From assembly GCF_032854445.1 (NCBI RefSeq), contig NC_088301.1, forward strand, positions 52,313,187 to 52,377,186: a DNA stretch of 64,000 bases, written 5' to 3'. Positions 1,740-62,450 of the stretch are shown one piece after another. The notes beneath the pieces were generated by a model that had not been told where the DNA came from, did not search any database, and worked only from the letters and a program-made list of their open reading frames with translations. The DNA is from Liolophura sinensis. Its lineage: Eukaryota > Mollusca > Polyplacophora > Chitonida > Chitonidae. The translations under genes were made by a program, and so were the position numbers. Numbering within the stretch: position 1 is the first letter of the stretch; every line of letters starts with the position of its first letter.

Positions 1740-3765
1740 AAACTCCAGCAAAAAAGTATGGAAGACGAGAACGACCATAATCCCCAGCCGCGCGTCATGC
1801 AAATACCAATATATATTCCTTTTCCACCGAAACTAGATCTCTTGGGTAATGTGGCAACTAACTGGAAGCGTTTTAGAACGGAGTTGTGGTTGACGGAGAT
1901 GTCAATATTGGGGTCAAATGCTATTCAAAAAATGGGACTAGTGACTGTTAAGCATTTTGAACAAATCTGTTAGCAGTGACACAGAAAGTGCTTGAACTCC
2001 ATACAACAACAACGCCAGAATCTACACTGACATGGAACGGCACAGAAACTGACTTTCATCATGTGTTTGAGGGAGAAGGTAAGTTAGCAGATAAACTTGT
2101 GCTTGAGGTTAAATCAGATGCTCAACCAGTGAATCTCCCGACACATAAACAACCTGTTGCTATTAAGGACAAGGTCAAGGTCGAATTGGATAAACTCACC
2201 AAACTAGGTATTGTCGCTCCGGTGGACAAACCAACCGATTGGATATCGTCAATGGTGGTTATAACTAAGCCCTCTGGCAAACTACGTCTGTGTATAAGTC
2301 ACTGACTAAAGCTTTCAAGAGAAACCATCACTCAACTCCGACAATCGACGGTATACTACCAGACCTCAACAAAGCAAGAGTGTTTTCAACAGTAAATGCG
2401 AAAAATGGTTTCTGGCATATAGAACTCATTGAGGATAGTAGGCCTACTTATCTCACAACATTTGGAACTCCTTGGGGTCGTTTGTTTGGCATGATTAACT
2501 ATGTTCAGGAGTTTGCATCTGGACATTCAGGAATTACCCTGCGTGATCTTCTGAAATCTGACACTTCTGTGGGAGTTTCTATGGTACAGCCAAGTTCAGG
2601 GACAAGCTTTTGAGAAAATCAAAGAGACTATCCGTTGCTTCTGTCTTTCAGTGTTTTGACGACCAAAAGGAAACAGTGTTGCAGTGTGACGCATCTGAAT
2701 ATGGACTGGGTGCTTGCATTCTCCAGGATGGACACCCGATTACGTTTGCCACTCGGTCTCTAACCTCGACTGAGGTAAACTTCGCTCGGATTGAGAAGGA
2801 GCTGTTATCCGTGGTGTTTGGATTTGAGAGATTTGAAACCCACCTGTACGGACGGAAATTCTTGTCGAATCAGACCACAAGCCTCTGGAGATCACATGCA
2901 AGAAAAGTCTACAAGGTGCACCTAAAAAGACACTCAAATCGATTCAGCAAGCAACTGAATCCGACATGACACTGACTCGGCTCACCAGATTGATCCTACA
3001 TGGTTGGCATGAGCAGAAAGATCGTCTTGACCCGAGTCTACAGGTCTATTTTCCATTTAGAGAACGCCCAAAATGGTGTTATCTTCAAAGGCGGACGCCA
3101 AGTGATATTGTCCTTTCGAGATGAGCTTACTTCAACAGTACACTCAAGTCATGTTGGTGTGCAGGGTAGCCTGAGACGAGCGCGAGAGACTATTTATTGG
3201 GCCAATATGAATCGTGACATTGAGGAGTACGTGAATAAGTGCATATTCCAAACAGTCGATTGTGAATAAATCACCGATGAAACCATCTCAACCAACTCCT
3301 GCTGATCGAGCTGTTTCGGAAGGCGTCGCGAACTGGACAGTCCTTGACATTCCAGAACAACCACCAGTGGAAGGGTTATTTGTAAACCAGCCTATCGGAA
3401 GGATTATGTAAATATTGTGTTTTAATGTGTTAACTTTCTTCAAGAACTGAATATCGTATTGCTAGAGGCATTTCTGTGGTTTCGCTTAATCGTTAAATGA
3501 CTTTATGGGTGTCTTTAAAGACATTTTTTTCCATGGACTGTTTATAAGTGAATCCTTTATGTTATTCGGCGAATTGTATGTGCAATGAACATTTCACTTC
3601 GCGTGGACTTTTCAGTGATGATTGGACTTTGAATTGTGTTCAGATTTGTGGATATTCTCAGTTAGAGTTATTATGAACATTTTTGTTTCATTAATCATTC
3701 AGTTTTAATATTTTAACTAATTGGATGTAAAAGCCAAAACTTCTATTTTTTTTATGAAAAGGGGA
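1740..3765 (+). pseudogene. Ty3/gypsy gag-pol relic with three internal deletions
   Basis: A decayed LTR retrotransposon of the Ty3/gypsy group, which would copy itself through reverse transcription. About 1758-1905 reads as a Gag-like N-terminus (FPPKLDLLGNVATNWKRF). It jumps at about 1905 to a protease/RT linker (NAIQKMGLVTV). At 1976-2480 is the RT fingers region (PTDWISSMVVITKPSGKLR, then TPTIDGILPDL, KNGFWHIEL, YLTTFGTPWGR). A second jump near 2483 removes the RT palm with its catalytic YxDD. RNase H follows at 2640-2960 (QCDASEYGLGACILQDG, IEKELLSVVFGFERFETHLYGRK). The integrase zinc finger is at about 3100-3260 (HSSHVG, RARETIYWANM) but lacks the last Cys. A third deletion removes the integrase core; a short pol C-terminus reaches about 3420. 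Frame changes at about 2295, 2605, 2865 and 3265. It cannot encode an active polymerase. Confidence 0.93.
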
Positions 3766-3945
3766 TGTAACGTTAATATATGCATATTTTCTAGAGTAAC
3801 GTAATTACAGAGTGACCTCCCTTACACCATATACTTTGTATTGATGTTGTTGACAATAAAGTTAGCTGTGGCGGAAGACACGGCGCTCGCTAGTTCGGTG
3901 CTAGTTATGAACTCTTACAAACTAACCAGCTAACGAAACAGGGTA
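3766..3945 (+). mobile_element. Candidate 3' LTR of the Ty3/gypsy relic
   Basis: A purine run (GAAAAGGGGA, ending at 3765) resembling a polypurine tract precedes TGTAACGTTAATATATGC, a plausible LTR start. The following 180 bp (to the region of AACGAAACAGGGTAACC) have no counterpart in the paralogous block at 7560-7590, and block B homology resumes at about 3945. I found no second copy at the 5' side (1600-1740), so the 5' LTR is missing. The exact right border is uncertain. Confidence 0.5.
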
Positions 3946-4860
3946 ACCGATAATAATTAATGCAATAATTTTAGTTAAATATCACAATTTTAAATATTAA
4001 AAAAACAAACCCACGTGATACAGTCAATAGGAATTCAGGAAATATTTTACTTGCATGCCTTGCAAATGTGACAATGAAACTACTGCATACAGTTATTCAA
4101 TATACTATTTTGCATGCAGATAGCAAAAATAATGGTGTCCGTACTTTTGTTTTAATATTATCACCATTGTTGTCAGTGAATATATGATTCATCTGTATCT
4201 GTTTGGGGTGAGCTGAGTTGCTGATGAAAAAAGGGAGATCATCTGGGCGAGCACTTTTCATGCTGACCTCCCTTTGACCGTGGAGTGATTATGAATCGTG
4301 TTTTCGAGAGATAACATGGAACGACACTACACTTTCACGCCGGCCATTTTTTGTAACGATGTTCAGCTACAAAGCACATCCCGTTTCCTCATCAAACTGA
4401 ATTGTTAATTTCTGAATTAGGTGAACAGCTAATTAAGAAAACCTGTACTGCAATAGAGAAAACATTTCCATCATCTCTGTACTAGGTAACCTGTTTAGTT
4501 AAAGTAGTCCCTCACATTATGTATACTTGTGTGAAGAACACGGTGCTCTTATCGTGACAGAGTTTCTTTGTTTGTGTAGAGAGATCGTGCTACAGGATCA
4601 TGTGAAGCATGTGAATTGAAGGCATATAATCAATATCGGGGGACAAAGCTCTTCTGCCGTCTGAATGCAGGGGCCATGGCTACATGTCTATCGTATGGGC
4701 ATAAAAAAAATGTATCAGGAGTACCGTGGCCTATAATACACAGCACATTTTAATACCCATTTTCTAGTACATAGGTCGCCACGATATGGCTGAAATATTG
4801 CCGATGTGGCGTTAAGCCATAATCATTCATTCTAGTACATAGGCAATATATAGGCCTATA
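3945..4860 (+). repeat. Tandem unit, block B, left copy
   Basis: Closely matches 7586-8510: GATAATTAATGCA, then ATATCACAATTTTAAATATT, AACAAACCCACGTGATACAG, and on through AACTGAATTGTTAATTTCTG to GAGTACCGTGGCC. Differences are substitutions and small indels plus the 54-bp SINE-C insertion at 4776-4829. No gene is recognised. Confidence 0.85.
4776..4829 (+). mobile_element. SINE-C tail, 54 bp, with 14-bp target site duplication
   Basis: The insert reads ACGATATGGCTGAAATATTG, then CCGATGTGGCGTTAAGCC and a CATTCATTC end. It is bounded by the direct repeat TTCTAGTACATAGG at 4762-4775 and 4830-4843. The paralogous site at 8475-8500 has a single related GTGGTACATAGG and no insert. The sequence resembles a tail I remember as common in gastropod DNA (recollection, not a search result). 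Confidence 0.8.
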
Positions 4861-5954
4861 CATATATAAGATGCCTAAACTTCGAAATAACTTGCGACCT
4901 ACGCTGTGCATTTGCGGTCAAAGGGAAATAAGCACCTGAATTTGTTACCTTCTTTTCAAGCCTTACCTCCCTTTAACAGCTAATGTGCAGATACACGGTT
5001 ACATGTACCGTGAACTGCGTTGAGTTGACGATCACACCTCATTAAGTATGTAAAAATCAGTTAACTGAACGACATATAGCTTAGCCGTGAATTTTTATTG
5101 AATTGAACCGGGTATATTTTAGTTAATAAACTTTATAGTGTATTTAGGTTGCAGGAACCCTACGTAACGTTCTGACCAGGGACACCAATCTGTTTCCAGT
5201 GCTGGAAATCATTCGCAATAATTCGGAGATAAAAATGTAACAATCCATTTAAAGATAATTTATACAAGATACATTATTTTGAAAAATAACATCAAGCTTA
5301 AACTGATGACAAAACACCAGTTCTTGATATTGAAAGGCTCAGTTATGGTACAAGTGTTAACCTTGTGCAGTTCTAAACTAGAGGGTAAAAATGAAATATG
5401 CAGTTGTTAATTGATGAAATCTATGTACACTAGTCGATGAAAGTCTAATGAAGCAATAACTAAATTTAAGGAAAAACAAATTATCATTTATGACCACTTT
5501 ATGCACTACCCTAGAAGATATGGGCTTTGGTGTTAGGGTCCAGGGGAGGTAAACACTTAAGTTTTACTTTTTTCCCCCACTCTTGCTTACCTCCCTTTGA
5601 CCATAGACGTACAAGTATGATATAATGAAACACCCATCAGCGACACAGGTGGCGGCCGCAACGCCATAGACAGATGGAACAAAAAATTCCAAATGAAGTG
5701 AATGCATTCTGTATTGGTAATATATCAAATATGCAGACTAAAGATATTCAGTGTGTATTCAATTTTTTTTAACGTTATACATACCTGTATCCAGTGAGGC
5801 ACGTATATGCATGAAGGAACTGGTAAAAGTTGAAAGTGTGTCCCGTAACTAATCATCGTGTCTCACACATACTATTGCATTCTGTATCACTGTTCACGAG
5901 GTAACCAATTCATAGTTAACTGAAAAGTTTTTGTGTCCCGGTTATAATTGTCTT

Positions 5955-6555: not shown

Positions 6556-7400
6556 TATCAAAATTCTTTATCATACATTGTTCATGTAAAATGCGTCGTA
6601 TGTGTTACCGATAAAACACTTCCTGTCATCATCAGGGACCAGACCATCGGGAAACTCAATTTGTAGATAATATATTAAGAAATTATACTTCTTTAAGAGT
6701 ACGTTACACAAATCTAAGAGGGTTCGGCTTTGAAGCCATTCCAGCTAATATCCTAAAAAAAAAGTATAGGCCTACATCTGAATATTTAATTAGTACATCT
6801 AGCGAGTCGTTTTTTATGTTGTTTAGAATATCATTTTCTCGTAAATACATCAGGAGTCTGGAATTTTCTTCAAACATGTATTTTTTTAAAGGTCTAATAA
6901 TCTGTAAATTATATAAAGGAGTGCGATACGCGACTTCCAGTGGTCAAAGGGAAGTAATTCATATTGCTTTCTGTCAAATTATCTCCCTTTGACCGTGACC
7001 ATTTCGACACTTACCGTGAAATCAGTTGCACTAGTACACCGTTAAAAAGACCAGCTGAATTTGGTTAGAAAACACATACATGATGACCTAAGATACTTTT
7101 AACATTTGGCGACAAAACAAGAGAAAGTGTTAACCTCAATCGGTTCTCCTAAACGATATTTCTACTTCGCGGGGCAACATTTAGGCTAATTGACTGTTGT
7201 TCTTTCAACAATATTTCAACTGGAGGACAGCGGGCCAGCTTTATGGTGGAGGACGGGCGACAGGTTCAGACTGTCACAAACTATTACAGGATGTAATATA
7301 CAGGTGAATAAGCTTTTTTACAAAATGATCGTTTAGGCCTATAGAACTCGTCTGCCACATTCTAAAAGACTACAGCAAATAAAGTAAGACTTGAAATCGG
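6556..7400 (+). repeat. Tandem unit, block A, right copy
   Basis: Counterpart of 8-1600 without the SINE inserts, the 146-bp duplication or the extra 400 bp at 1035-1435. Identity remains obvious by eye over hundreds of bases (for example AGAAATTATACTTCTTTAAG and GAGGGTTCGGCTTTGAAGCC). It supplies empty sites for dating the insertions in the left copy. Confidence 0.85.
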
Positions 7401-7585
7401 ATTAAAAAAGAAAGACAGAAAGAAAAAAAATTCTATCCCTGGTTGTGCCTTCCAGATGTAATTAAAATAATCATAATAATAATAAAAATGCACAGGAACA
7501 TTATTATGGTCGAAGGGAAGTAATTTGATACCGTACTGGAATAACATGGATTATTTCCCTTACACCTCCATGTTTGGTTGTGTGA

Positions 7586-13985: not shown

Positions 13986-14634
13986 AATCGCCGTTAAATT
14001 CTTGAGGTGGGGGTATTATACTATTATGTATGTATCTACACACTCACATTGTACACCGTGTTAATGATTGATCGTGGATTAACGTTACATCGTTAATATT
14101 GCAGCCACATCACGGTGAGAACATGTTTAAGCCAGGAAACAATAAATTATTTCTGATGCGATAAGAGCACCCAGAATAAAATAAAATACAGGGACATTTT
14201 TAAAACCCGTTACAACTCAAAAGCGAGATACATCTAGAATGCCAAATTCCTATTTTTAACACCTATAATCTTGCAAATTGGAATTGAGAAATGTATATTA
14301 GAATTATATGTGACTGTATAAATGAATTTCGCTTAAATAATTAATGACAGCATTGCCATCGACGTTGTAAAATAATTCATATTCACTACATAGAACATGA
14401 GCAAAATGTACACAGTCAATTAGGATATTTGAGAACGAAGTCTACACGGTCAACCAGGATGTTTGAAGCCAAATGGGGCATCACAAACAACACACTCTAT
14501 GACGATGCCCCAATCAAGCGAGAATAAAATTGTGACTAGTGACCTTGGGGTCATGGTGGTGTAACATAACCACTGCTAAAAAGAACTTTCTATATGCAAA
14601 ACAAGCTTATTATCTACCACTTCTATGCAACTGT

Positions 14635-15265
14635 CGTGACCTGATTCGCAACATGTCAATATCGTGACCTGATTCACAACATGTCAATATCGTGACCTGA
14701 TTCACAACATGTCAATATCGTGACCTGATTCACAACATGTCAATATCATGACCTTATTCGCAACATGTCAATATCGTGACCTGATTCACAACATGTCAAT
14801 ATCGTAACCTGATTCACAACATGTCAATATCGTGACCTGATTCACAACATGTCAATATCGTGACATTATTCACAACATGTCAATATCGTAACCTTATTCA
14901 CAACATGTCAATATCGTGACCTGATTCACAACGTCAATATCGTGACCTGATTCACAACATGTCAATATCGTAACCTGATTCACAACATGTCAATATCGTG
15001 ACATTATTCACAACATGTCAATATCGTAACCTTATTCACAACATGTCAATATCGTGACCTGATTCACAACGTCAATATCGTGACCTGATTCACAACATGT
15101 CAATATCGAAACCTGATTCACAACATGTCAATATCGTGACCTGATTCATAACATGTCAATATCGTAACCTTATTCACAACATGTCAATATCGTAACCTAA
15201 TTCACAACATGTCAATATCATGACCTGATTCACAACGTCAATATCGTAACCTTATTCACCACAGA
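14635..15265 (+). repeat. 28-bp satellite, about 22 units, with 138-bp higher-order period
   Basis: The unit is GTGACCTGATTCACAACATG plus TCAATATC. Variants alternate: GTGACC, GTAACC or GTGACA followed by TGATT or TTATT, and a short form CACAACGTC lacking AT. A five-unit block starting with GTGACATTATT at 14860 repeats at 14998 in the same order, including the 2-bp-deleted unit, giving a 138-bp period (5 x 28 minus 2). The array ends at the SINE-B starting at 15284. A decayed unit (TATTGCAACCTGATACCACA) lies beyond that SINE at 15640. Confidence 0.95.
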
Positions 15266-17523: not shown

Positions 17524-19690
17524 ATGGATAATGACACAGACTCTTCTATGTTTGTTCCACCTCACAATTCATTCTCCCGCCTGCCATTCCATAATGTTCC
17601 CTACATAACACCTACTTCCTCATCAATTGCCTTGTCCACCGTCCCAACATATAATCTTGATATTATTGACCAGATGTGCTTCAATCCAATTGAACTGAAT
17701 GGATATGATGCATCTAAAACTCATATTGATGACAACGAACATGAAATTGCATATTGGAGTAATTTAGACTATACTATAGCTCTAAATGTTCCACTCAACA
17801 CCAAGAAACCCTCGATTATGACAATCAAAATCAGTTTTCAACCTTTCATTTAAATGCCCGTAGCTTAGCAAAAAATTTGGCGAAATTACATGCCTTACCC
17901 TTACTCAAAGTCATAACTTTTCAGTCCTTGGATTTTCGGAAAGTTGGCTCAACCCGTTAACCGAATGCTTGTATTCCATGCCAGGCTACACTTTATATTC
18001 TGCCTCCCGAGATAAACGGAAGGGAGGAGGTGTTGCACTCTATGTTTATAGCCCTTTTGAGTCTTGCAAGATATGCGATGATCTTTCTTTTTTCGATGAA
18101 GATTGTGGATATAAGTGGAGATCACTGCTCCATCAAATTTCTATGTTGGAATTATTTATCGCCCCCCAGGCAAACACGTGTGTCTTTTTAATGAAAAACT
18201 AAGCACAGCCCTTTGAAACATCAACTTACTCTTTTCGAAAAAACACTTCAGAACAAGTCAATCTAATGGGACGTGGTAAATGCAAGAACATGCCTAAATG
18301 TTTTAATATTGATGGGTTATCTGTTTCAGATAAAAGTATCATTTCCAACAGATTTAATGAATTTTTCGACTCTTGCTTCCAGTTTGGATGCTGATATACC
18401 CCAAGCCCTAAACATTTTTTTCAGATTTTCTAGGTGAGCCTGTAGAAGAAAACTTTCAATATTCTCCTTAACATATAGTTAATTTGTTCCTTATGTCGGG
18501 ATGTATGCCGCCTTCGTTGAAATCTGCAAAAATGACCCCCATCTTTAAAGGTGGTGACGCCAATAACATTACAAACTACCGTCCCATATCGGTATTACCT
18601 AGTCTGAGCAAAATAATGGAAAAATGGTTGTAAACATGATGAATGATTTTCTGACAGCCAATGATATCAATTCGCCCAACCAATTTGGTTTTAGACCTGG
18701 GCACTCTACTACACATGCGGCGTGCACTCTATACAACTACCCCGTAGGTGCCAAAAACGGCAAAAACGACATTCTGTCATGTCTTTCCTTGACCTGTCAA
18801 AAGCTTTTGACACTGTCAACCACAAAATCCTTCAACAAAAACTCGAATACTATGGGTTTCGAGCTCACAGTGCTCAATGGTTCGAGAGCTATCTATTTGG
18901 CCGATCCCAATCAATTTCCTTTGAAGGAAATATGTCAAAAGACCGTGAGGTAGATTGTGGTGTTCCCCAGGGCTCCATTCTCGGTCCTATATTATTGTTA
19001 TTGTTCCTTTACATCACAGCATCACCAGATATTCTGGATTTTACATTATTTGCTGATGAGATCAGTGTCTGCACTTATGCGCCTACACGCTGTATCCACT
19101 ATATCTGTAGAGTTGCATAAAATATTCGATTGGCTGACAGCTAACCGCTTGTCCCTTAATATTAGTAAAACAAAATACATGCACATAAATGTATCCAAAA
19201 ATAAGGCACTTCCGCCACCTCTATATTTGCATGGCGTAGAAATAGCCAGCCTGCAAGAACACGAGTTCTTGGGAGCCTATTTTAATTCAATGAACATCTT
19301 ATATTGACTTTGTTAGTAAGAAGGTATCCAGAAATATTGGCATCATCAAACTAATGCGAGCAAATGTCAAAAAAAAAAAAAAAACAACAAAAAACACTGC
19401 TTATTTTGTACTACTCTCTAATTTTTCCTCTGCAAATATTTTATGGGGTAACACGTCCAATATTTAAGAACCACAAAATCCTCTCACTTGCACAAATACA
19501 CAGATACTCATCCTTGCTACTCGCACATCTGACGTTCACAATTACCCAACTGGATCTTATTCTTTCAATCTCAAAACTTCAAATGTATCCACACATTTCA
19601 TCAGATCATCAGCCCCAAGGGAATGGAACAGGCTTCCTCAAAACCTCAAAGTAATCAATGTCGCGTCTTTATTCAAATCCAGGTTGAAAG
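17524..19690 (+). pseudogene. Non-LTR retrotransposon ORF2 (endonuclease + reverse transcriptase), decayed
   Basis: ORF2 of a LINE would nick target DNA and reverse-transcribe its own RNA there. An N-terminal part runs from ATG 17524. At about 17840-18170 is an AP-type endonuclease (FHLNARSLAKNLAKL, LGFSESWLNPLTE, ASRDKRKGGGVALYVYSPF) cut short by frame changes. RT follows at about 18500-19280: TPIFKGGDANNITNYRPISV, NQFGFRPGHSTTHA, FLDLSKAFDTVNHKILQQKL, DCGVPQGSILGP, then FADE at 19049-19060 where FADD is expected. C-terminal wording (DWLTANRLSLNISKTKYMHI, HEFLGAYFN, later YYSLIFPLQIFYG) reaches about 19660. A poly-A run at 19367-19382 interrupts it. Motifs fit the Jockey/CR1/L2 group; I cannot place it further. 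At least four frame shifts. Confidence 0.9.
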
Positions 19691-28455: not shown

Positions 28456-28655
28456 GTAATAATGCGTATACATATATATGATACTCATTCTCAGTCATAA
28501 AAATCTTTATGTTTAACATATCGGGGCAGCCGTAGTTTTAACCTAAAGTTTGTTCATTCAATACATATTTATCAGGGGAGGTTATCCCCAGGTGGCGCTG
28601 TCCTCGCTGCTGACTCAAGTTTTCATTTGCCATTATCCCTGACATTTCTGAGGTC

Positions 28656-30760
28656 ATGTCTGGCCTTTGTTGTGTCCCACATGGCAATGGCCAAGGGTGG
28701 CATGCCTTCCCATCTAACGCTCAGATGAGAAAGAGGTGGATCAAGGCCGTGAAACGGAGAGAGCCGAAGTGGAAGCCATTCAAATGGATGACAGTTTGCC
28801 GGGCTCATTTCGCGGAGTGTGGTTATTTCAAGTAGACCACAGAAAGTACCGGTAAGTGTTGTCAAAACTGTTTTAAAGCATTTCTTTGGTGGCAAATGCA
28901 GGGTAACAAAAGCCGGGAGAGATATGAATGTTTTTAGAATTTGATTTGAATAACTATGTCTACTTTCTCCGTACAAGAGATGGCAAGTGCTCGATACATG
29001 AAATATAGCAAAACTGGGTGACATTGTTTGTATTCTGTTTAAATTAAACGAGAATATGTCGCACAAATCTCATCTAATGTGGCGTTCCGTAAGATTAAAT
29101 GAATATTATATTATATGTTGTCTTTTTTACTTTACTGACAAAGATCCAGCCAAACATCGTGACTTACAGCCCAACACAGTCCCCCATATTTTTTCGTGGA
29201 AACGATCGCCTACAGTGTCAGCAAGAAAGAGGGCGCAAAGAAGGGAAGAAATAAAGGAGGAGATAAAGAGAGTAGAAGAGGAAAGGATTATAGCTTTGGA
29301 TGTTTTATGGGCTGGGGTAGACGCGGAGACAGACGCTGGAATGGATAGTGGGCAATGGGAGAAAGAAAGTAAGTCTGCCCAGCACTCTGCCATCATCTTT
29401 CCCATCCATAATGTCTCTGTGTGTTAATGTCCAGAATATTTGCATCGAATGTGCTCTGCACTAAGCAGCTTAAGCTGAGTAAGTTATTGTTTTATACTTG
29501 TTACCTGTAAACTCTGATATATCTAGTGATATGGTATCCCCAAATATGTATCTTCTTACCATTGATGTCACTGGATCAAATCAGATGGCTCAAACCATAA
29601 GTGAGAAATCATGCCTCCACACCATAAACATGAATAAGCCTTTCCTCTTGAAACGTTTTGAGTTACACTTGTCATGATAATTTGCTAGCCACTGTCATGA
29701 GACCCGCCCTCCCTTCCAAAAAACATTTGAAATTATCTATAAATGCCAAAATTTAACATTTGTTTTTTTTTGTTCACCAGCAGTTTCCATGCCTATAGGT
29801 GTCCAGGAAGTTGCCTCACAGACTGTACACAGGGGATTTGCATCATCAACAGATTTTATTTTTGATCCAAAAAGATTTCATTTTTACACTAGCCCTTATG
29901 ACATTTTCAAAACTATATTTTATTGTTTAGGGGAGGCTGCATTTGAGTTACATTATTTTTATGACATTGTTCCTTCAATGTATCAGGAGACCAGTTTTAT
30001 TTAAGGCTTATGAAATTATGTTTAGCTAGAACAAATTATGAATTAAGTGGTATGTTTGTTATGAGTGAGAAAGAAGTTGCAAATATTTTCATTACATGGG
30101 TTAATTTTCTGTATTTTCAGTTTAAAGATATTGATTGGTGGCCATCCAGAGATCTAGGTCAGTTTTATTCTCCATCTGATTTTAAGGAGAAATATCCAAG
30201 AACTAAAGTCATTGTGATGGAACTGAAATTCCAGTTCAAAAACCCCATCAGCCAATCCTTCATCAAGGAACTTATTCCAACTATAAGAACAGAAATGCAG
30301 CAAAGTTTCTTGCTGGTATTACACCTGGAGGCTTAGTCAGTTATGTGTCAGATTAATTGGTGGTGCTGCCAGTGATCATCAAATATGTGAGAGAAGTGCT
30401 CTCCTCACTAAGTGTGACCCAGGAGACTCGCTGACAAAGGTTTTAATGTCCAAGACTTGTTTATACCATATCAGGTTCAACGTTCATGTGAACATTCCAC
30501 AGTTCTTTGCCAAGAAAAACAGAATGCCCAATAATTCAGTCTTAGCGACAGAAAAATAGCTTGTAAAAGGGTACATGTGAAACATTTTATAGGTCTGGTT
30601 AAGACATTTAAAATTTTGAGCTTTTAGCTCAAAGCCAGCTACTCTCTCTTTACTTTGAGCTTAGCTTCTGTCCTATCTAACTCCATGCAGATAATTTCAC
30701 TGATCTCTACAACTTGAGCCTGTCCTTATATTTTGTACTTGCTGGTTAGAAGGTCAGTTA
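28656..30760 (+). pseudogene. THAP-domain DDE transposase, decayed (ISL2EU/DDE_Tnp_4 type)
   Basis: Would bind transposon ends through a THAP zinc finger and cut DNA with a DDE nuclease. Exon 1 from ATG 28656 gives the THAP front half (GQGWHAFPS, then RKRWIKAVKRREPKWK and TVCRAHFAECGYFK); the second zinc Cys of the usual CCVPxC is Gly here, and TAG follows at 28833. Exon 2 (about 29144-29368, donor AAA|GTAAGT) gives the THAP end (HRDLQPNTVPHIFSW) and a coiled coil (RREEIKEEIKRVEEERI). Exon 3 (acceptor CACCAG at 29780, phase-compatible with exon 2) gives FHFYTSPYDIFK, then after a frame change MKLCLARTNYELSGMFVMSE and NFLYFQFKDIDWWPSRDLGQ. In the next frame come the first catalytic Asp (VDGTEIPVQ), YSNYKNRNAAKFLAGITPGG and VSYVSD-stop, then GGAASDHQICERSALLTKCD, ADKGFNVQDLF (second Asp) and RKIACKRVHVKHFIGLVKTF, where Lys replaces the expected Glu. 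At least four frame breaks and one stop. Confidence 0.93.
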
Positions 30761-31490
30761 AATTGTCTGCGTGGAGTTAAATCTCACTGAAGCTGAGCTC
30801 CAGAGAAGGAGAGATCAGCTCGCTACTGAGCTTAATCATCTCACAGCCTTGTTCTTTCACAGTGTGATATTTTAACTGTATAACTGTAGCCAAGTGAAGT
30901 TTGGAGATAAACACTTCTTTTGAGTATGCCATTGTATGCCGTCAAAACACAGCTGAAAGAAAACATTGCTCTACTCACAATATTTGCTTTATTTGCTACC
31001 ATACATAAGTAAGTATGTAAGTCATGCTTTAGAGCAATATTTTCATTATGAAACGCAGGATTTATATATAATGTAGGTGTATCCAAAACATTTGTTGATG
31101 CATTAAGTACAGTAATCTACCCACATCAGGTGTGGGTTCAAACCAAACCGTGAGCATGGAATTGCAGAACACACTGTTTTGCTGCTTGTGGGGCCTTGAT
31201 AACACTTGTGTGGCTGTTTGTTCATTCTCAAATTCATGGAAGAGAGTGCACTTGTCTTCCACCTAAGTGTGTGGGACAACCCCTCAGCAAATGCCAAAGT
31301 TCAGTGTTTTCTCCTAGCTCTCTAGTGTCCCCCACCTTCAATACTGACCATAATTGCCTAAGTGAAAAATTGTTGAGTATGGCGTTAACCAACAATCAGA
31401 TAAACAAACTTAGATGGAAATAATACATACACAAGGACTGGGAAAACCATTTCCAAGTGCAGTTTTGATTATTCAGATTCTCTCACTGAA

Positions 31491-31735
31491 GGGGGCATCC
31501 GTGGCTGACGGGGTCAGCGCTCCAGTGCGGCGTAATGACCCAGGTGGGTCCCACCAATGCGGTCGCTGTGAGTTGGCTCATGCTAGCTTCTTCAGCTATA
31601 TGTGGGAAGATCTTCCAGCAACCTGCAGGTGGTGGTGGGTTTCCCCCATGCCCTGCTGGGTTATCTCCCACCATAATGCTGGCTGTCGTCATATAAGTTA
31701 AATATTCTTGAGTACGGCGTAGAATAAAATAAATC
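31491..31735 (+). mobile_element. SINE-A, full length
   Basis: The complete element: tRNA-like head (GGGGCATCCGTGGCTGACGG, GGTCAGCGC), CAATGCGGTCGCTGTGAGTT, CTAGCTTCTTCAGC, CAACCTGCAGGTGG, ATAATGCTGGCTGTCGTC, AAATATTCTTGAGTACGGCG and AATAAAATAAA. Flanks TCTCACTGAA (31481-31490) and TTTCACTGAA (31736-31745) form a 10-bp target duplication with one mismatch. It sits between the two convergent genes of the 28.6-34 kb transposon and therefore postdates that element. Confidence 0.93.
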
Positions 31736-32049
31736 TTTCACTGAATAAAATGCAAAATATGTGCATTCCGTAGCGGCCTTTAGTGACTACTCCTTCATGA
31801 TTTGAACTATTAAATATGCTATATCCATTGTGTTTCAATCTTCAACACACACTGAGCAGCACATTCTTTCATATATTACAGATTTTTTGTACAGGCCTGC
31901 TAAAGTTATACCTACATACATTTTTGTACAAAAATTTGTTAATAATGGCTTGTTCAAATGATTATTTTAGAAGTTGTCCAGTTTTGCTAACGTATGTTCT
32001 ACAAAACTGCTGTTATGACTAATATCAATTATTTCCATTCCCATTTTAC

Positions 32050-33964
32050 ATACGATGCTTGCCTTCTAATTTCCTCTTCAATTTCCTGGATTTGTAGGTC
32101 ACTAATATGTGACACCTGAAGTACACAAAATACAGCAAACTAAATAAGTGTTATTAAAATAATAACCTTCATCATATGTGACACTGAAGTCACTGATATG
32201 AGTAACCTAGCAATTTATCAATTTCGGGTGTAACAGTACACTTTTCTCAAGCAATTCATTGATGAGAGTATGCAGTTAATGCTGAGGTCAATAATTATAC
32301 TGTACTGTGGTCATCGTACCTGGAGTTTTAGAAAATGATCTTCCATTGTCATCTCCATGTAGTGATGTTCAAGATACAAGGCAGCTGTATGTGCAGGGTG
32401 CACTTCTGAATTATGAGCCTCCTGCCTTTTCCCTGCAAGATGGGAATGAAACATAATGGAAAGTGGGAACCACACCTGAGCAACACTTATGTGATGTTTG
32501 CTTCTTGTCTCACTATTTTACATTCACTTTGTATGTAAAAACTAATATCTGCTGGATTATTGATTTTTGTCATGATTTACAATTCTAATCATATTTATAT
32601 TTTAGACTTATATATTTATACTAGACCTTACTGATTATAGGCTACAGAGGCGACCAAGGGCTATCATGGGTATAGATGCTTACCTGTGTGCAGGTGACCT
32701 CTGTCAAAACTTCGCCTGTGCCGTGGAAGGACGTCAGGGCAACGAGCACCCAGGTTACATGCTTACAATGTGCAGATGGGCCCTGCCCAACTGCACTTCG
32801 CACTGGGTCTCCTGAACAACTCCATCGGTATTAAGGCTGAAATCCACTTGATATGACGTATTTTTCTTCATCTCTGCCCAGACTGCTGCTCTGATATACA
32901 CACTGGTATCCCCGTTGAAGAAACGATCGTAACGAAGATATCTGGAGGAAAAATATCACAAACCGAGCTTCAGTAGGGTTTATGTAAGGCAAATATGTTC
33001 AATTTACACACGATGAGATTTGGCATGAGAAATTATTATTATGATTATAACCCCCATGGTTTTAAACGTGTTCAGTCTTTACTGTCGACCTAAATACCGT
33101 ATATGATATATTTATTAAGAATGAGTATACCTCTGCTGGTACAACTGCTGAATCTTGTCGTACTTCTTGTCACAGCTGTACAAAAACTCCTCTATTCCCT
33201 TATGTGTTATAGGGAACTCTTGGTGACGGCCATGATGGAGGTCTTTGTACAATCTACAGTCAGGCAATGTCATACTGAACTCTGGCTCTGGTTCTACGTT
33301 AGTGCTAGGCCTGTTTGCATCATCAAACGTTAACCTGTGAAAAATATGTTGAGATCATTTAACAAAAATAGAATATACCTAGAAAATCTCATGATATTTG
33401 TACTGTAAAAGACATCCCACGGAGCATATTATAGACGAAAATGAAAAGTCGTGGTCATGTACATAGGGCCTATATGTGGGAGGTAATAGTTAGAATGGAG
33501 AAACTTTAACCTACCTATCAACCAAATCCTTTTTTTCAGCCCGTCAATTTCAATTTCCTCTCTCGTAGCAATTCTTTAAGTTCCTGTAGACTTTTATCTG
33601 TATATCTGCATTCACTTTGTTCGAACATTATTGCAGCGCGCTTCCGAAATGCGTAAACAGCAACGTTATTTGATATAATAGAGTTGTCGGCCTTGGACCA
33701 TCGGAAGTCCGGGGTGCATGTTGCGCCGTCTGGTGGCGGTGGTTTCGCCGATTCTCCATTAAACACAAAAAAACCTTCATAACCTTCATAAGTCCTCCGG
33801 TCGTGGGTTATTTTGAGTGTAATTTCAGTTTCTCGAACCCGGATTAGGGGTATGTCATCTTCCACTTGTTGCAATTCACGCCTCACCCCGATTTTGTGCA
33901 TTGTCTGTGGTAGAAGCGAAACTGACTGTAAGTGCTTATAGCAAAGAGTTTGAAAATATAACAT
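32050..33964 (-). pseudogene. SAP-SWIM-YqaJ-like accessory protein of a DNA transposon, spliced, broken
   Basis: Read leftwards. Exon 1 (33964-33515) ends in a SAP motif (RYTDKSLQELKELLRERKLK, LTG, then after a one-base slip EKKDLVDR). Exon 2 (33334-33131) is fully open (LTFDDANRPSTNVEPEPEFS, later KGIEEFLYSCDKKYDKIQQL). Exon 3 (32941-32684) carries YLRYDRFFNGDTSVYIRAAV, then a SWIM zinc finger (TQCEC, shift, GQGPSAHCKHVTWVLVALTS) and GEVLTEVTCTQ. Exon 4 (32432-32320) gives KRQEAHNSEVHPAHTAALYL. Exon 5 (32115 to about 32050) gives VSHISDLQIQEIEEEIRRQA, the run-up to a YqaJ nuclease domain. Introns have GT-AG ends (CTCCAG|ATATC, GAG|GTATAC, CACAG|GTTAAC, CACAG|GTAAGC, TTGCAG|GG, TTCAG|GTGTC). 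The join of exons 3 and 4 is out of phase, so a small exon may be missed. The nuclease core is absent. The SAP and SWIM shifts suggest a pseudogene. Confidence 0.88.
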
Positions 33965-41699: not shown

Positions 41700-42280
41700 A
41701 TAGTTCATTGCTATAGTATTGTAGACCTAGTGGTTCACTCACCAGTATCGCATTTGTATATTTAGAGGTTCAAACCTCATATCTGGAAGCCCTATTGTAA
41801 TTGTTCGGATTCTTCTTATTATTAGGGGTCCATGCAGGTAGTCCTGCGGGACACCTATTGAGATCGTTCGTATTATTATTAGGGACCCCGTTCTCTCCAA
41901 ACGGGATTTTTATTGTAATAGTTGTGTTTTCTCTTATTGTTATTTTTATTATTATTTTTTTTTGGTTATTATTGTTATTATTATTTCACCGATTTTGTGA
42001 TCGCGCTACTGTCTAGACGCCCAGACCGTTTGACCGGTTGGCTTGAAACTTTGCTGTAAACTTACCCTGTACCTGTTATCAGTCCAGCAATTCGTTTTCT
42101 TTCTATGTCACGTTTTTTGGCAGCCATTTTGGATTTGTAGCAAATCGTTTAAACATCTTTTCCAAAAGCACTGAACGGATTGTTCTGAATTTTGATATGC
42201 AGGTAGACTCGTCCGAGCTTGAATAAGTTTGAGAGAATCGTTGACGTCCGGTTAAAACTTGAGAAAGTCGCCAATTCTCT
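41700..42280 (+). repeat. Repeat E copy 1, with tRNA-like head and hairpins
   Basis: Starts with a tRNA-like segment (CCTAGTGGTTCACTCACC, later GAGGTTCAAACCTC). Then come GC-rich hairpins (GTCCTGCGGGAC at 41840-41851; CCCCGTTCTCTCCAAACGGG at 41886), a (TTATTAT) run, and a body CATTTTGGATTTG, AAATCGTTTAAACATC, TTCCAAAAGCACTGAACGGA, TTGATATGCAGGTAGAC. The body recurs at 43830-44110 and 44570-44890. This copy abuts the 5' end of the Penelope-like element. Confidence 0.7.
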
Positions 42281-42284
42281 CGGT

Positions 42285-43800
42285 ATTTACTAAAACAGGT
42301 CACCGTTACATTAATGTCAGAAGCAATCCGGCTTTCTTTAGTTCTACTCTTTATAAAGGTTACCACTCATGGGATGTTACATTATTTAATAAATTACTTG
42401 AATTTCTCATTAATAACATCTATGTGAAATTCGGAGATACCATTTACCAACAGTGCATAGGTATTCCAATGGGTACCAATTGTGCGCCTCTTTTGGCAGA
42501 CCTATACCAGTTTTCATATGAATACGACTATATGCAGAAATTACTTAAAAGTAATATCTTTAAAGCTCGATCCTTTTCATTTACCAAGCGGTATATTGAT
42601 GATCTACTGGCGTTAAATAATCCCCATATTGCTGAAGCTGTGAAGGAAATCTTAATTGGATTTAAAGGAGGCAACAGATAGTCCTGATGATACATCTTAT
42701 TTGGATCTATATCTGTACAAAGACGAACAAGGTCTCCTTTCACGCCGCCTTTACGACAAAAGGGATAATTGCAAGTTTGATATTGTAAATTATCCTTATT
42801 TAGATAGCAATATACCAAAGGGTCCTGCATATGGCGTATACATATCTCGCCTTGTAGCATTTGTCAGATCTTGCGTCAATTGTGATGACTTTAATCTGCG
42901 TCACAAGTTGCTAGTTAAAAAACTAGTTTGTCAAGGATACTCCATCGAACGCCTTCATTCTAAGTTTCTCAAATTTTACACTGAGTATAACACTCTCGTT
43001 GGCAGGTATGGACAAAATGTTCAGAATCTCTGGCGATCTGCATTGTGATCAACCACATAGACGGCGCTGTTATCCCTATTTACATATCTATCACGTACAT
43101 GGTATTTAACAACATAGATGGCGCTGGTTGCCCAGTGTAACCGTCTATCTTGTATGTCATGTGTAACATCATAGATGGCGCCTCTTGTAGCATGAGGTCT
43201 TCACATATTAACGGGAAAGACGTAATCGTCCGTTACTTTTGAATCACAATCTGATCGGTTAGGGTCTGTAACGCTCGTCATTTTCAAACTGTATCTAATA
43301 CCGCTTAACCTGGGGCTAGGGGCCTTAAAGGTAGCCATGCTAATTACATCAGCATGATGCCTTTATGAACAGTTGCAATTAAAGCGCGACTGAGATACTT
43401 GTTTAATTGTCATTTGACATGGAACTCATTTACGGACTACGAATTTGAACTTTGATATGGAATTCATGCCTGGAATATTCATTGTCTGCCCGGCATCATT
43501 GAAAACTGATGACCGCTTCTCTCTTGTTTGTTACCGGCTTTATTTCTTATTTGCATAATTTCCTACATACCTTTGTCTTTGGGAGTTAGTGTTAAAAGTT
43601 GTTTTGGAAATGGATCTTGCGATTATCGACTTGGAACGCCCTTTACGGACTACGAATGGTATAGAAATGTCGGACTTGACGCTTATATTTATTGCTTTCT
43701 GCTGCACTGTCCATGGTTTCCTGAAACGGTTGTGCCATTACTTATAGCTATCATGTCTAATATTTGATGGCGTACAATGATGAATACAACAACGAACGAC
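42285..43800 (+). pseudogene. Penelope-like retroelement, 5'-truncated RT plus 3' hydrophobic frame
   Basis: An RT that would copy the element's RNA. 42285-42670 gives FTKTGHRYINVRSNPAFFSS, YVKFGDTIYQQCIGIPMGTN (RT motif with GIPMG), CAPLLADLYQFSYEYDYMQK and the catalytic RYIDDLLALN. After a frame change at about 42660 come SYLDLYLYKDEQGLLSRRLY, DSNIPKGPAYGVYISRLVAF and RHKLLVKKLVCQGYSIERLH, ending TGA at 43046. Another frame at 43528-43767 (LFLICIISYIPLSLGV, FGNGSCDYRLGTPFTDYEWY) has counterparts downstream of the 20.2-kb copy, so it belongs to the element. I assign it to Penelope-like elements from the motif wording; a DIRS-like or other RT group is not excluded. The N-terminus and any GIY-YIG domain are not seen. 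Confidence 0.82.
43056..43185 (+). repeat. 56-bp tandem repeat, three units, after the RT stop
   Basis: CATAGACGGCGC at 43056, CATAGATGGCGC at 43113 and again at 43169, each followed by diverged sequence ending near GTA or GTCTATC. Regular spacing of 56-57 bp in the element's non-coding part. Confidence 0.7.
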
Positions 43801-49355: not shown

Positions 49356-56089
<6,734 letters not shown>

Positions 56090-61731: not shown

Positions 61732-62450
61732 TTAGACTACTTGCCAATTCTTTGTGCCACATGGAGCACAAATGATTGAAAGATCCGATTCACATTCCAT
61801 GGTGCGCGGATCGAATCTGAGCCCTTCGGGGCATTTGAGAATGTCGCCATCTTGACTGCCATTTTCACATCGGTAGTAGTATTCACAATCAGTGCTTAGG
61901 TCAGGGTAAAAACCGGTTGGTAATTGCTTTGCTTGACACGGATCTATTTCGGCTTGCTCACACATCATTGTGTCCGGGTTGTATTCCTCACCATCCGGAC
62001 ATTCTGTAAAATTAATTTTACGAACATTTATGTCTAATAAATATGAATTCAATGTTTGTTATGCAAATTTATATCTCGTAAAGGCCTTAGTTACAGATTT
62101 ACACTTTACCAGTCCAATCATGTAGGATGACACTGTCTGGATTTCACAAGCTCAAACTTTGCCTAATTGCACTTTAACGTCCTCAGTTTCATTATATGGA
62201 AAGCCGAACTTTTAAAATCACTATCCTCGCTGTGACAGAAAGCAAACAAAACCCAAATCATTTAAGTGCGACTTACTAGTAGATCCACATCCATTGATAG
62301 GGGCCCAATAGTTGCAGACGTTGTACCACGTGTTGAAGACTAGCCCTCCTGGGCAGTCGTGAAGGTAAGGCACTCCATGCGAACATTGGTAGAAGGAACG
62401 TGGATTTAAGGGATTACATATGTATTGCCCATGCCAGCGACATTTTATCT
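61732..62450 (-). CDS. Chitin-binding (peritrophin-A/CBM14) protein, last two exons
   Basis: Such secreted proteins bind chitin through small disulphide-linked domains. Exon n-1 (62450-62277) encodes KCRWHGQYICNPLNPRSFYQ, CSHGVPYLHDCPGGLVFNTW and NVCNYWAPINGCGST, one domain with the usual Cys spacing and the FYQC aromatic core. Exon n (62003-61732) continues KCPDGEEYNPDTMMCEQ, the end of another unit, then a further domain (DPCQAKQLPTGFYPDLSTDC, EYYYRCENG, LKCPEGLRFDPRTMECES) and a short tail GTKNWQVV. Borders are CTGCAG|AG, TA|GTAAGT and TTTTACAG|AA; phases agree (1/1). The start, a signal peptide and earlier exons are not found to the right. The gene may run out of the window. Confidence 0.9.

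Follow-up and report, generated by a model that had tools for sequence, protein, structure and literature searches.

A probable ISL2EU-type transposon relic with a SAP-SWIM-YqaJ partner gene in the chiton Liolophura sinensis

Two broken convergent genes and their shared relative

A 64,000-nucleotide stretch of the Liolophura sinensis genome (assembly GCF_032854445.1, contig NC_088301.1; C7:52313187-52377186 in the contig labels used here) contains the remains of two genes that converge tail to tail. This whole stretch is referred to as the window. The plus-strand gene encoded a THAP-DDE transposase and the minus-strand gene a spliced partner protein with SAP, SWIM, and YqaJ remains. An earlier reading of the letters alone (the original prediction) had proposed two convergent broken genes here, and this was borne out by Pfam matches on the plus strand and by Pfam matches, homology to sister families, and splice sites on the minus strand. 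A search of the genome (609 Mb, 632 contigs) located a common relative of both genes and sister families that share this gene order, and inverted terminal motifs flank the pair. The locus is very probably an old, inactive cut-and-paste DNA transposon of the ISL2EU group (PHIS superfamily) that extends from about 28563 to 33757 and belongs to a subgroup with a SAP-SWIM-YqaJ partner (Table 1).

Pfam scans of the exon pieces recovered the THAP and DDE_Tnp_4 domains expected on the plus strand. Of the two nuclease motifs read there previously, ADKGF is present literally within 30421-30444, but VDGTEI is not. The window reads HCDGTEI right after a stop codon, and the earlier reading had bridged a frameshift.

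The partner gene consists of five exons, from about 33636 down to 31930, that are joined by GT-AG splice sites in consistent phase; the original prediction had noted several phase-consistent introns. For the SWIM exon, consistent phase requires one base that the window lacks in comparison with its relative L021 (described below). The SAP piece alone is weak (Pfam E 0.0091 for 33539-33901), improving to 8.5e-6 when the exon pieces were placed side by side, joined with X at the breaks. In the genome-wide SAP search the window site scored 19.8 bits (E 0.535), under the cut-off. No Pfam match to SWIM or YqaJ was found anywhere in the window pieces scanned. The SWIM exon was recognized by its similarity to the corresponding exon of sister family B, which is itself a Pfam SWIM match (5.9e-6). 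The second Cys of the C-x-C in the window finger is Val, and one base is missing relative to L021, which reads CECSNGQSPSTRCRH at this position. The YqaJ lead-in IQEIEEEIRRQA is present and the YqaJ core is absent. Thus, of the SAP, SWIM, and YqaJ lead-in proposed for the minus strand, the SAP domain and the lead-in were found, but the SWIM domain is identifiable by homology only.

A 142-residue frame reaching up to 33964 was considered as the start of the partner gene and rejected, because L021 resembles the window DNA no further than 33640 and the putative element ends at 33757. In the own-genome search with the SAP exon (query 33539-33901), however, the match covered residues 70-121, so some residues upstream may belong to the partner.

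The shared relative, L021, lies at C12:28.63 Mb. An own-genome search with a transposase exon returned two places, the window and L021. A second search, with the SAP exon, returned the same two, its match at L021 being weak (E 3.4e-4). The two loci share colinear blocks between 28796 and 33640 with 58-80% DNA identity that include both genes and, in part, their introns. Window positions 32038 and 32041 align to L021 positions 5059 and 5497, and the 437 bp between them encode the YqaJ core that the window lacks (Pfam YqaJ 7.9e-7 for 5199-5417). The original prediction described the element as autonomous, which this copy is not. It is a relic in which both genes are broken and the YqaJ core is deleted. 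In the aligned blocks, 130 codons of the transposase contain 112 differences and 142 codons of the partner contain 123, and third-position changes exceed one-third in both genes (p 0.0027 for the transposase, p 0.0056 for the partner). Coding constraint therefore probably acted on both genes during part of the separate history of the window and L021.

Table 1. Features of the putative element, in window positions
Feature	Position	Strand	Evidence or remark
Inferred ISL2EU-type element	28563..33757	.	5195 bp; AAT before (28560-28562), ATT after (33758-33760); terminal motif and sister-family end geometry
Left terminal motif TCCCCAGGTGGCGCT	28585..28599	+	22 nt inside inferred end; rank 1 in 64 kb
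THAP zinc-finger exon	28656..28835	+	Pfam THAP 2.7e-7 on 28656-28832; in-frame stop at 28833-28835
Transposase linker exon	29137..29424	+	No Pfam match; tblastx 52.5% over 40 residues to L021
Transposase piece preceding HTH	29783..30001	+	Own-genome search: two places, window and C12:28633932 (56%)
Open frame with HTH_Tnp_4	29965..30333	+	Pfam 1.4e-4, under curated cut-off
DDE_Tnp_4, first catalytic Asp region	30207..30353	+	Pfam 2.3e-9; reads HCDGTEI, out of frame with preceding part
DDE region containing ADKGF	30421..30531	+	Frame read; no Pfam match alone; used as piece in tree
DDE_Tnp_4 C-terminal part, RVHVKHFIGLVKTFKIL	30535..30624	+	Pfam 1.1e-4, 22.3 bits versus cut-off 24.8
Dispersed repeat between the two genes	31494..31724	.	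Matched in 13 of 20 compared loci; best match L037 (77.6% over 241 bp)
Partner exon 5: YqaJ lead-in VSHISDLQIQEIEEEIRRQA, then C-terminal tail	31930..32115	-	Low end approximate; YqaJ core deleted between 32038 and 32041
Partner exon 4, open, phase 0 at both ends	32320..32475	-	Splice sites, frame; tblastx to L021
Partner exon 3, damaged SWIM finger (CEV...CKH, one base short)	32684..32941	-	Matches SWIM exon of family B (tblastn 3.4e-7)
Partner exon 2, phase 2 at both ends	33131..33334	-	Splice sites and frame; 61% over 18 residues to L021
Partner exon 1, SAP, internal frameshift	33515..33636	-	Start codon unsure; 33628 is ATG common with L021, and tblastx match to L021 runs from there
Right terminal motif CCACCAGACGGCGCA, inverted	33722..33736	-	21 nt inside inferred end; rank 2 in 64 kb

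Sister families and co-occurrence of the two genes

Younger and fuller relatives with the gene pair exist in the same genome. For family A, 11 copies were compared, of which 10 are full length (about 5.79 kb); the copies are 98.5-99.7% identical, and eight of the 11 are stop-free in the stretches compared. The family A transposase has THAP (1.9e-17), HTH (6.3e-12), and DDE (1.3e-38) domains, all over the Pfam cut-off, and its partner has PHD (5.5e-11) and YqaJ (4.3e-14) domains and a SWIM match under the cut-off (0.034) with the motif CSCPAGIDGQCKH. The PHD finger lies at 7169-7558(-) of copy L028, and the family A partner gave no SAP match. In family B, copy L022 carries SAP (4.4e-9), SWIM (5.9e-6), and YqaJ (7.3e-20) opposite HTH and DDE. 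The second copy, L044, which is 98.8% identical to L022, has a THAP match (3.8e-9) and is missing YqaJ.

Family E (L043 and L045) has THAP (7.2e-10), HTH, and DDE; its two copies (C2:5.18 and 10.04 Mb) are 99.5% identical and have an open transposase exon of 389 residues, along with a SAP exon and a pre-SWIM exon that is cut in L043. Neither copy gave a SWIM match or a convincing YqaJ match (best E 0.06). HTH was found in family D (L039 and L046), with no THAP match in the frame scanned, and THAP (1.4e-9) was found in L035 of family C (L023 and L035). With tblastn, the pre-SWIM exon of family B was matched in L039, L043, and L045, and its SAP exon in L043, L045, and L046.

In a tree of the transposases of this genome's own families, the window copy groups with families B, D, and E at 100/100 support. 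Because the window transposase groups with these SAP-bearing families, and because family B carries SAP, SWIM, and YqaJ opposite HTH and DDE, the comparison indicates that SAP-SWIM-YqaJ is a clade trait in this genome rather than something peculiar to the window copy. The original prediction had singled out SAP plus SWIM with introns as the less familiar part of the element. These features are present, but they are usual for this clade here.

Most variants among the family A copies are non-synonymous (26 versus 7 in DDE, 24 versus 8 in the partner, and 8 versus 2 in PHD), with no excess at third positions, and pairs of copies from families C, D, and F showed no third-position excess either. 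These patterns indicate that young copies decay neutrally after insertion.

The original prediction would have been refuted if the two genes never co-occurred in other genomic copies. Searches with the transposase profile (PF13359) gave at least 152 matches, with 150 of 282 candidates scored, and the YqaJ profile (PF09588) gave 28. At 17 of the 28 YqaJ places a transposase lies tail to tail and has its start no more than 2.4 kb away (16 among the PF13359 matches listed, and L021 by its own search), and at one further place (L025) the transposase is in another orientation. SAP matches were found at 29 places (16 over the cut-off); at eight of them, counting the window, a convergent transposase lies no more than 6 kb away. 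There were 51 SWIM places, one of which is the family B exon (C4:9945753).

Two other loci were observed in these searches. L025 contains a stretch of about 1.5 kb (3272-4762) with another DDE_Tnp_4 gene that is absent from the 96% identical L024, which may represent the empty site for that extra stretch. At C8:2858939-2860039, a SWIM match and a SAP match on the same strand are separated by 1 kb, and neither a transposase nor YqaJ is among the matches listed there; this pair could be either a decayed element or a host gene.

Terminal motifs, target site, and surroundings

A 15-bp terminal matrix was built from six ends of families B, D, and E. Its two best sites in the window lie in inverted orientation outside the two genes, and neither the first nor the second score was reached in any of 100 Markov sequences. 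The trinucleotide AAT precedes 11 of the 12 ends tabulated for families A, B, D, E, and F, as well as both window ends, and AAT...ATT encloses 10 of 10 full copies of family A. The ends of families A, E, and F and the SAP side of family B were bounded by comparing copies. In family E, three of four ends follow AAT and one follows TAT. Applying the sister spacing to the window gives 28563-33757, flanked by AAT and ATT, with a right end that begins GG and a left end that begins AC. The originally proposed span, 28656-33964, began about 93 bp inside the putative left end and ran about 207 bp beyond the putative right end.

A B/D-type pattern of AATGGGG followed by 14-20 bases and the motif occurs eight times in the genome, versus zero in a reversed control and 0.001 expected by composition. 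Four of the eight sites are at or beside B or D elements (C4:9.953, C6:25.593, C7:53.380, and C1:69.792 Mb) and one repeats a D end (C6:73.391 Mb); the other three are not tied to an element. Placing the window ends by DNA identity was also tried and was rejected, as the left flank contains an unrelated dispersed repeat (28300 to at most 28465, outside the putative element) and 33720-34300 matches only itself. Alignment of the window ends to the B and D ends gave nothing convincing.

The terminal motif (e.g., CCGCTAGGGGGCGCA) resembles the CTCF core consensus CCASYAGRKGGCRCY. Matches with two mismatches were observed at both ends of family A (L028), family B (L044), and the window, and at one D end each in L039 and L046; the ends of families E, C, and F and L021 gave no CTCF-like match at two mismatches. 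As background, three other sites at two or fewer mismatches were present in the 15 sequences scanned (L022 8193, L024 7050, and L027 5260). The motif faces inward in B, D, and the window and outward in A. CTCF motifs are described as frequent in promoters of an annelid in the part of that study available (PMC7854359). Our literature search found no paper linking ISL2EU with CTCF.

Elsewhere in the window there is a tandem array of a 28-bp unit (14634-15263; 22.7 copies, 91% matches). Retroelement remains include a reverse transcriptase RNase H region at 2562-2966 (Pfam 3.4e-20) and RVT_1 at 18695-19117 (4.6e-16), and a frame at 42256-43045 that appears reverse-transcriptase-like by reading gave no Pfam match. 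Two probable host exons were observed. One encodes a chitin-binding CBM_14 domain (61735-62058(-), 4.3e-14). The other is a CxxCxGxG-rich frame (53425-53730(+); DnaJ_CXXCXGXG 2.9e-4, under the cut-off) that runs into a TA repeat.

Assignment to ISL2EU and possible roles of the partner

ISL2EU elements with a THAP-DDE transposase and a YqaJ protein have already been published (PMC4482050 and PMC9179366, in the parts available). The published group has two genes, one for a THAP/HTH/DDE transposase and one for a YqaJ-domain protein, and an AT duplication inside A/AT/T. The original assignment to ISL2EU holds in that the window has a THAP-HTH-DDE_Tnp_4 transposase, with HTH under its cut-off, a tail-to-tail partner with YqaJ remains, inverted terminal motifs, and putative A/AT/T flanks. 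The mean published length of autonomous elements in these excerpts is about 4840 bp, compared with an inferred 5195 bp here and about 5790 bp in family A. ISL2EU elements have terminal inverted repeats (TIRs) of 6-259 bp that usually start with GG; the window has a 15-bp inverted subterminal motif, and of its putative ends the right one starts with GG and the left one with AC. The window copy also differs in being broken and without a YqaJ core; it has only the YqaJ lead-in and the tail, whereas the core is present in L021 and the domain is whole in families A and B. According to the same part of PMC4482050, PIF/Harbinger elements have a related DDE transposase and a similar two-gene layout, but a Myb/SANT partner and a TWA target, and Spy, in the same superfamily, has one gene, no target duplication, and a preference for insertion at AAATTT.

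Several observations weigh against the reading of the window as a single ISL2EU-type element with the ends given here. Many of them concern the ends. One plain pairwise TIR search gave a best score of 23 versus shuffle maxima of 21-27, with only the region right of 33850 looked at, and in a second the best score was reached by 15 of 200 shuffles. Because the plain TIR search was negative, the exact ends and target site of the window copy are treated as inferred from sister-family end geometry. The search for shared terminal repeats proposed with the original prediction yielded no plain TIR above shuffles; the window does have a 15-bp inverted subterminal motif shared with sister families. The B and D motif sites were chosen after a scan had already revealed the two window sites, and the E sites were chosen by eye. 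Since the choice was not blind, the motif test was repeated with partial family sets. With a B plus D matrix the left and right window sites still ranked 1 and 2 (0/60 controls), and with D alone they ranked 1 and 4 (0/60 controls). The ranks were 4 and 1 with B alone, 1 and 5 with A alone, and 1 and 4 with E alone, with 1-10 of 60 controls reaching the scores (2-10 for A and E, 10 for the left site with B). The single-copy ends on the THAP side of B and the SAP side of D were set by AATGGGG, which makes their AAT partly circular, and the eight-site genome pattern contains AATGGGG as well. The THAP end of D (no clear AAT) and L024 (second end reads ATT) were left out of the end table, and the chance of an AAT within the allowed distance is about 0.13 per end.

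Other unfavorable points concern the genes. In the transposase tree the window has a long branch (1.62), and its row fills 41% of the columns. L021 is broken in a manner complementary to the window, with the YqaJ core kept and the DDE core not found by tblastn, and a motif scan detected no terminal motif in it. The third-position excess is absent when the YqaJ lead-in and tail blocks (p 0.39) or the SWIM block (p 0.13) are considered alone. Furthermore, 10 of the 28 YqaJ places have no transposase among the matches listed, and for three of these (L024, L027, and L037) none was found by tblastn either. These unaccompanied YqaJ places, together with the SAP and SWIM pair at C8:2.859 Mb, would fit a window with two unrelated relics, a dead THAP transposase and a decayed host SAP/SWIM gene that converge by chance. 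However, the same gene pair is found in the same order at L021, transposases converge with 17 of the 28 YqaJ places and eight of the 29 SAP places, both window genes sit between inverted terminal motifs, and families A and B speak against unrelated relics as well. A chance juxtaposition is thus highly improbable.

It could also be supposed that an element of another PHIS group (Harbinger, Pangu, Nuwa, or Spy) lies beside a YqaJ gene of viral origin. YqaJ genes have been counted as endogenous viral elements in a clam genome (PMC7826175, in the part available), and the YqaJ domains of three of the families described here also match the Viral_alk_exo model. This origin is nonetheless very unlikely because THAP, the AT target duplication, and a YqaJ partner are ISL2EU characters, whereas four other PHIS groups have Myb/SANT partners and Spy has none, as far as the available part of PMC4482050 goes. 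The partner pieces scanned with Pfam gave no Myb/SANT match, and SAP and SWIM were found instead.

DDE_Tnp_4 proteins function in cut-and-paste transposition. In the living element, the THAP-HTH-DDE protein would bind the element ends through THAP, perhaps together with the partner, and would cut at A/AT/T, producing the 2-bp AT duplication by staggered cuts, as proposed in the part of PMC4482050 available. The partner would bind DNA via SAP and SWIM, judging from these domain families, and its YqaJ domain would make it a lambda-exonuclease-type nuclease. In a YqaJ alignment of five families, D92, E102-x-K104, Q142, and Q146 are kept, with D92, E102, and K104 invariant, and the alignment matches the solved exonucleases 3syy (2.1e-16) and lambda exonuclease (1.7e-5), as well as ORF 37 (SOX). 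The kept catalytic-type residues and the matches to solved exonucleases make nuclease activity of the partner probable. For the nuclease, the likeliest single possibility, offered tentatively, is resection of the broken donor site, which would let repair copy the element back in.

It is about as likely that the element is the same but has no need of the nuclease. A real possibility, if short of a probable one, is that the partner acts as a DNA-binding helper in end binding or targeting, by analogy with the Myb-like protein of Harbinger. The existence of copies without YqaJ (L044, L043/L045, and the window) and the variation in N-terminal modules, which are SAP in B, D, and E and PHD in A, would fit such a helper. 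However, the catalytic-type residues are invariant in five families, and copies without the gene could be moved in trans. It is also conceivable, although unlikely, that the ISL2EU partner works as a targeting nuclease of modular build, in which a constant SWIM-YqaJ core with an N-terminal chromatin or DNA module that is exchangeable by clade (SAP or PHD) acts on CTCF-core-like ends, and that both ends of the elements provide insulator-like sites that the transposons exploit or disseminate.

SWIM does not appear in the available text of PMC4482050 or PMC9179366, nor SAP in that of PMC4482050, and a literature search, which covered SWIM and SAP but not PHD, turned up no paper connecting either domain with YqaJ transposons. 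Within this single genome, position and shared ends link genes of the SAP-SWIM-YqaJ and PHD-SWIM-YqaJ kinds with ISL2EU-type transposases. In a clam genome, expanded YqaJ genes were counted as endogenous viral elements (PMC7826175, in the part available); in L. sinensis, 17 of 28 YqaJ places lie tail to tail with a transposase. The young family A, with copies that are about 99% identical, would make the role of a nuclease in a cut-and-paste element testable in cell culture.

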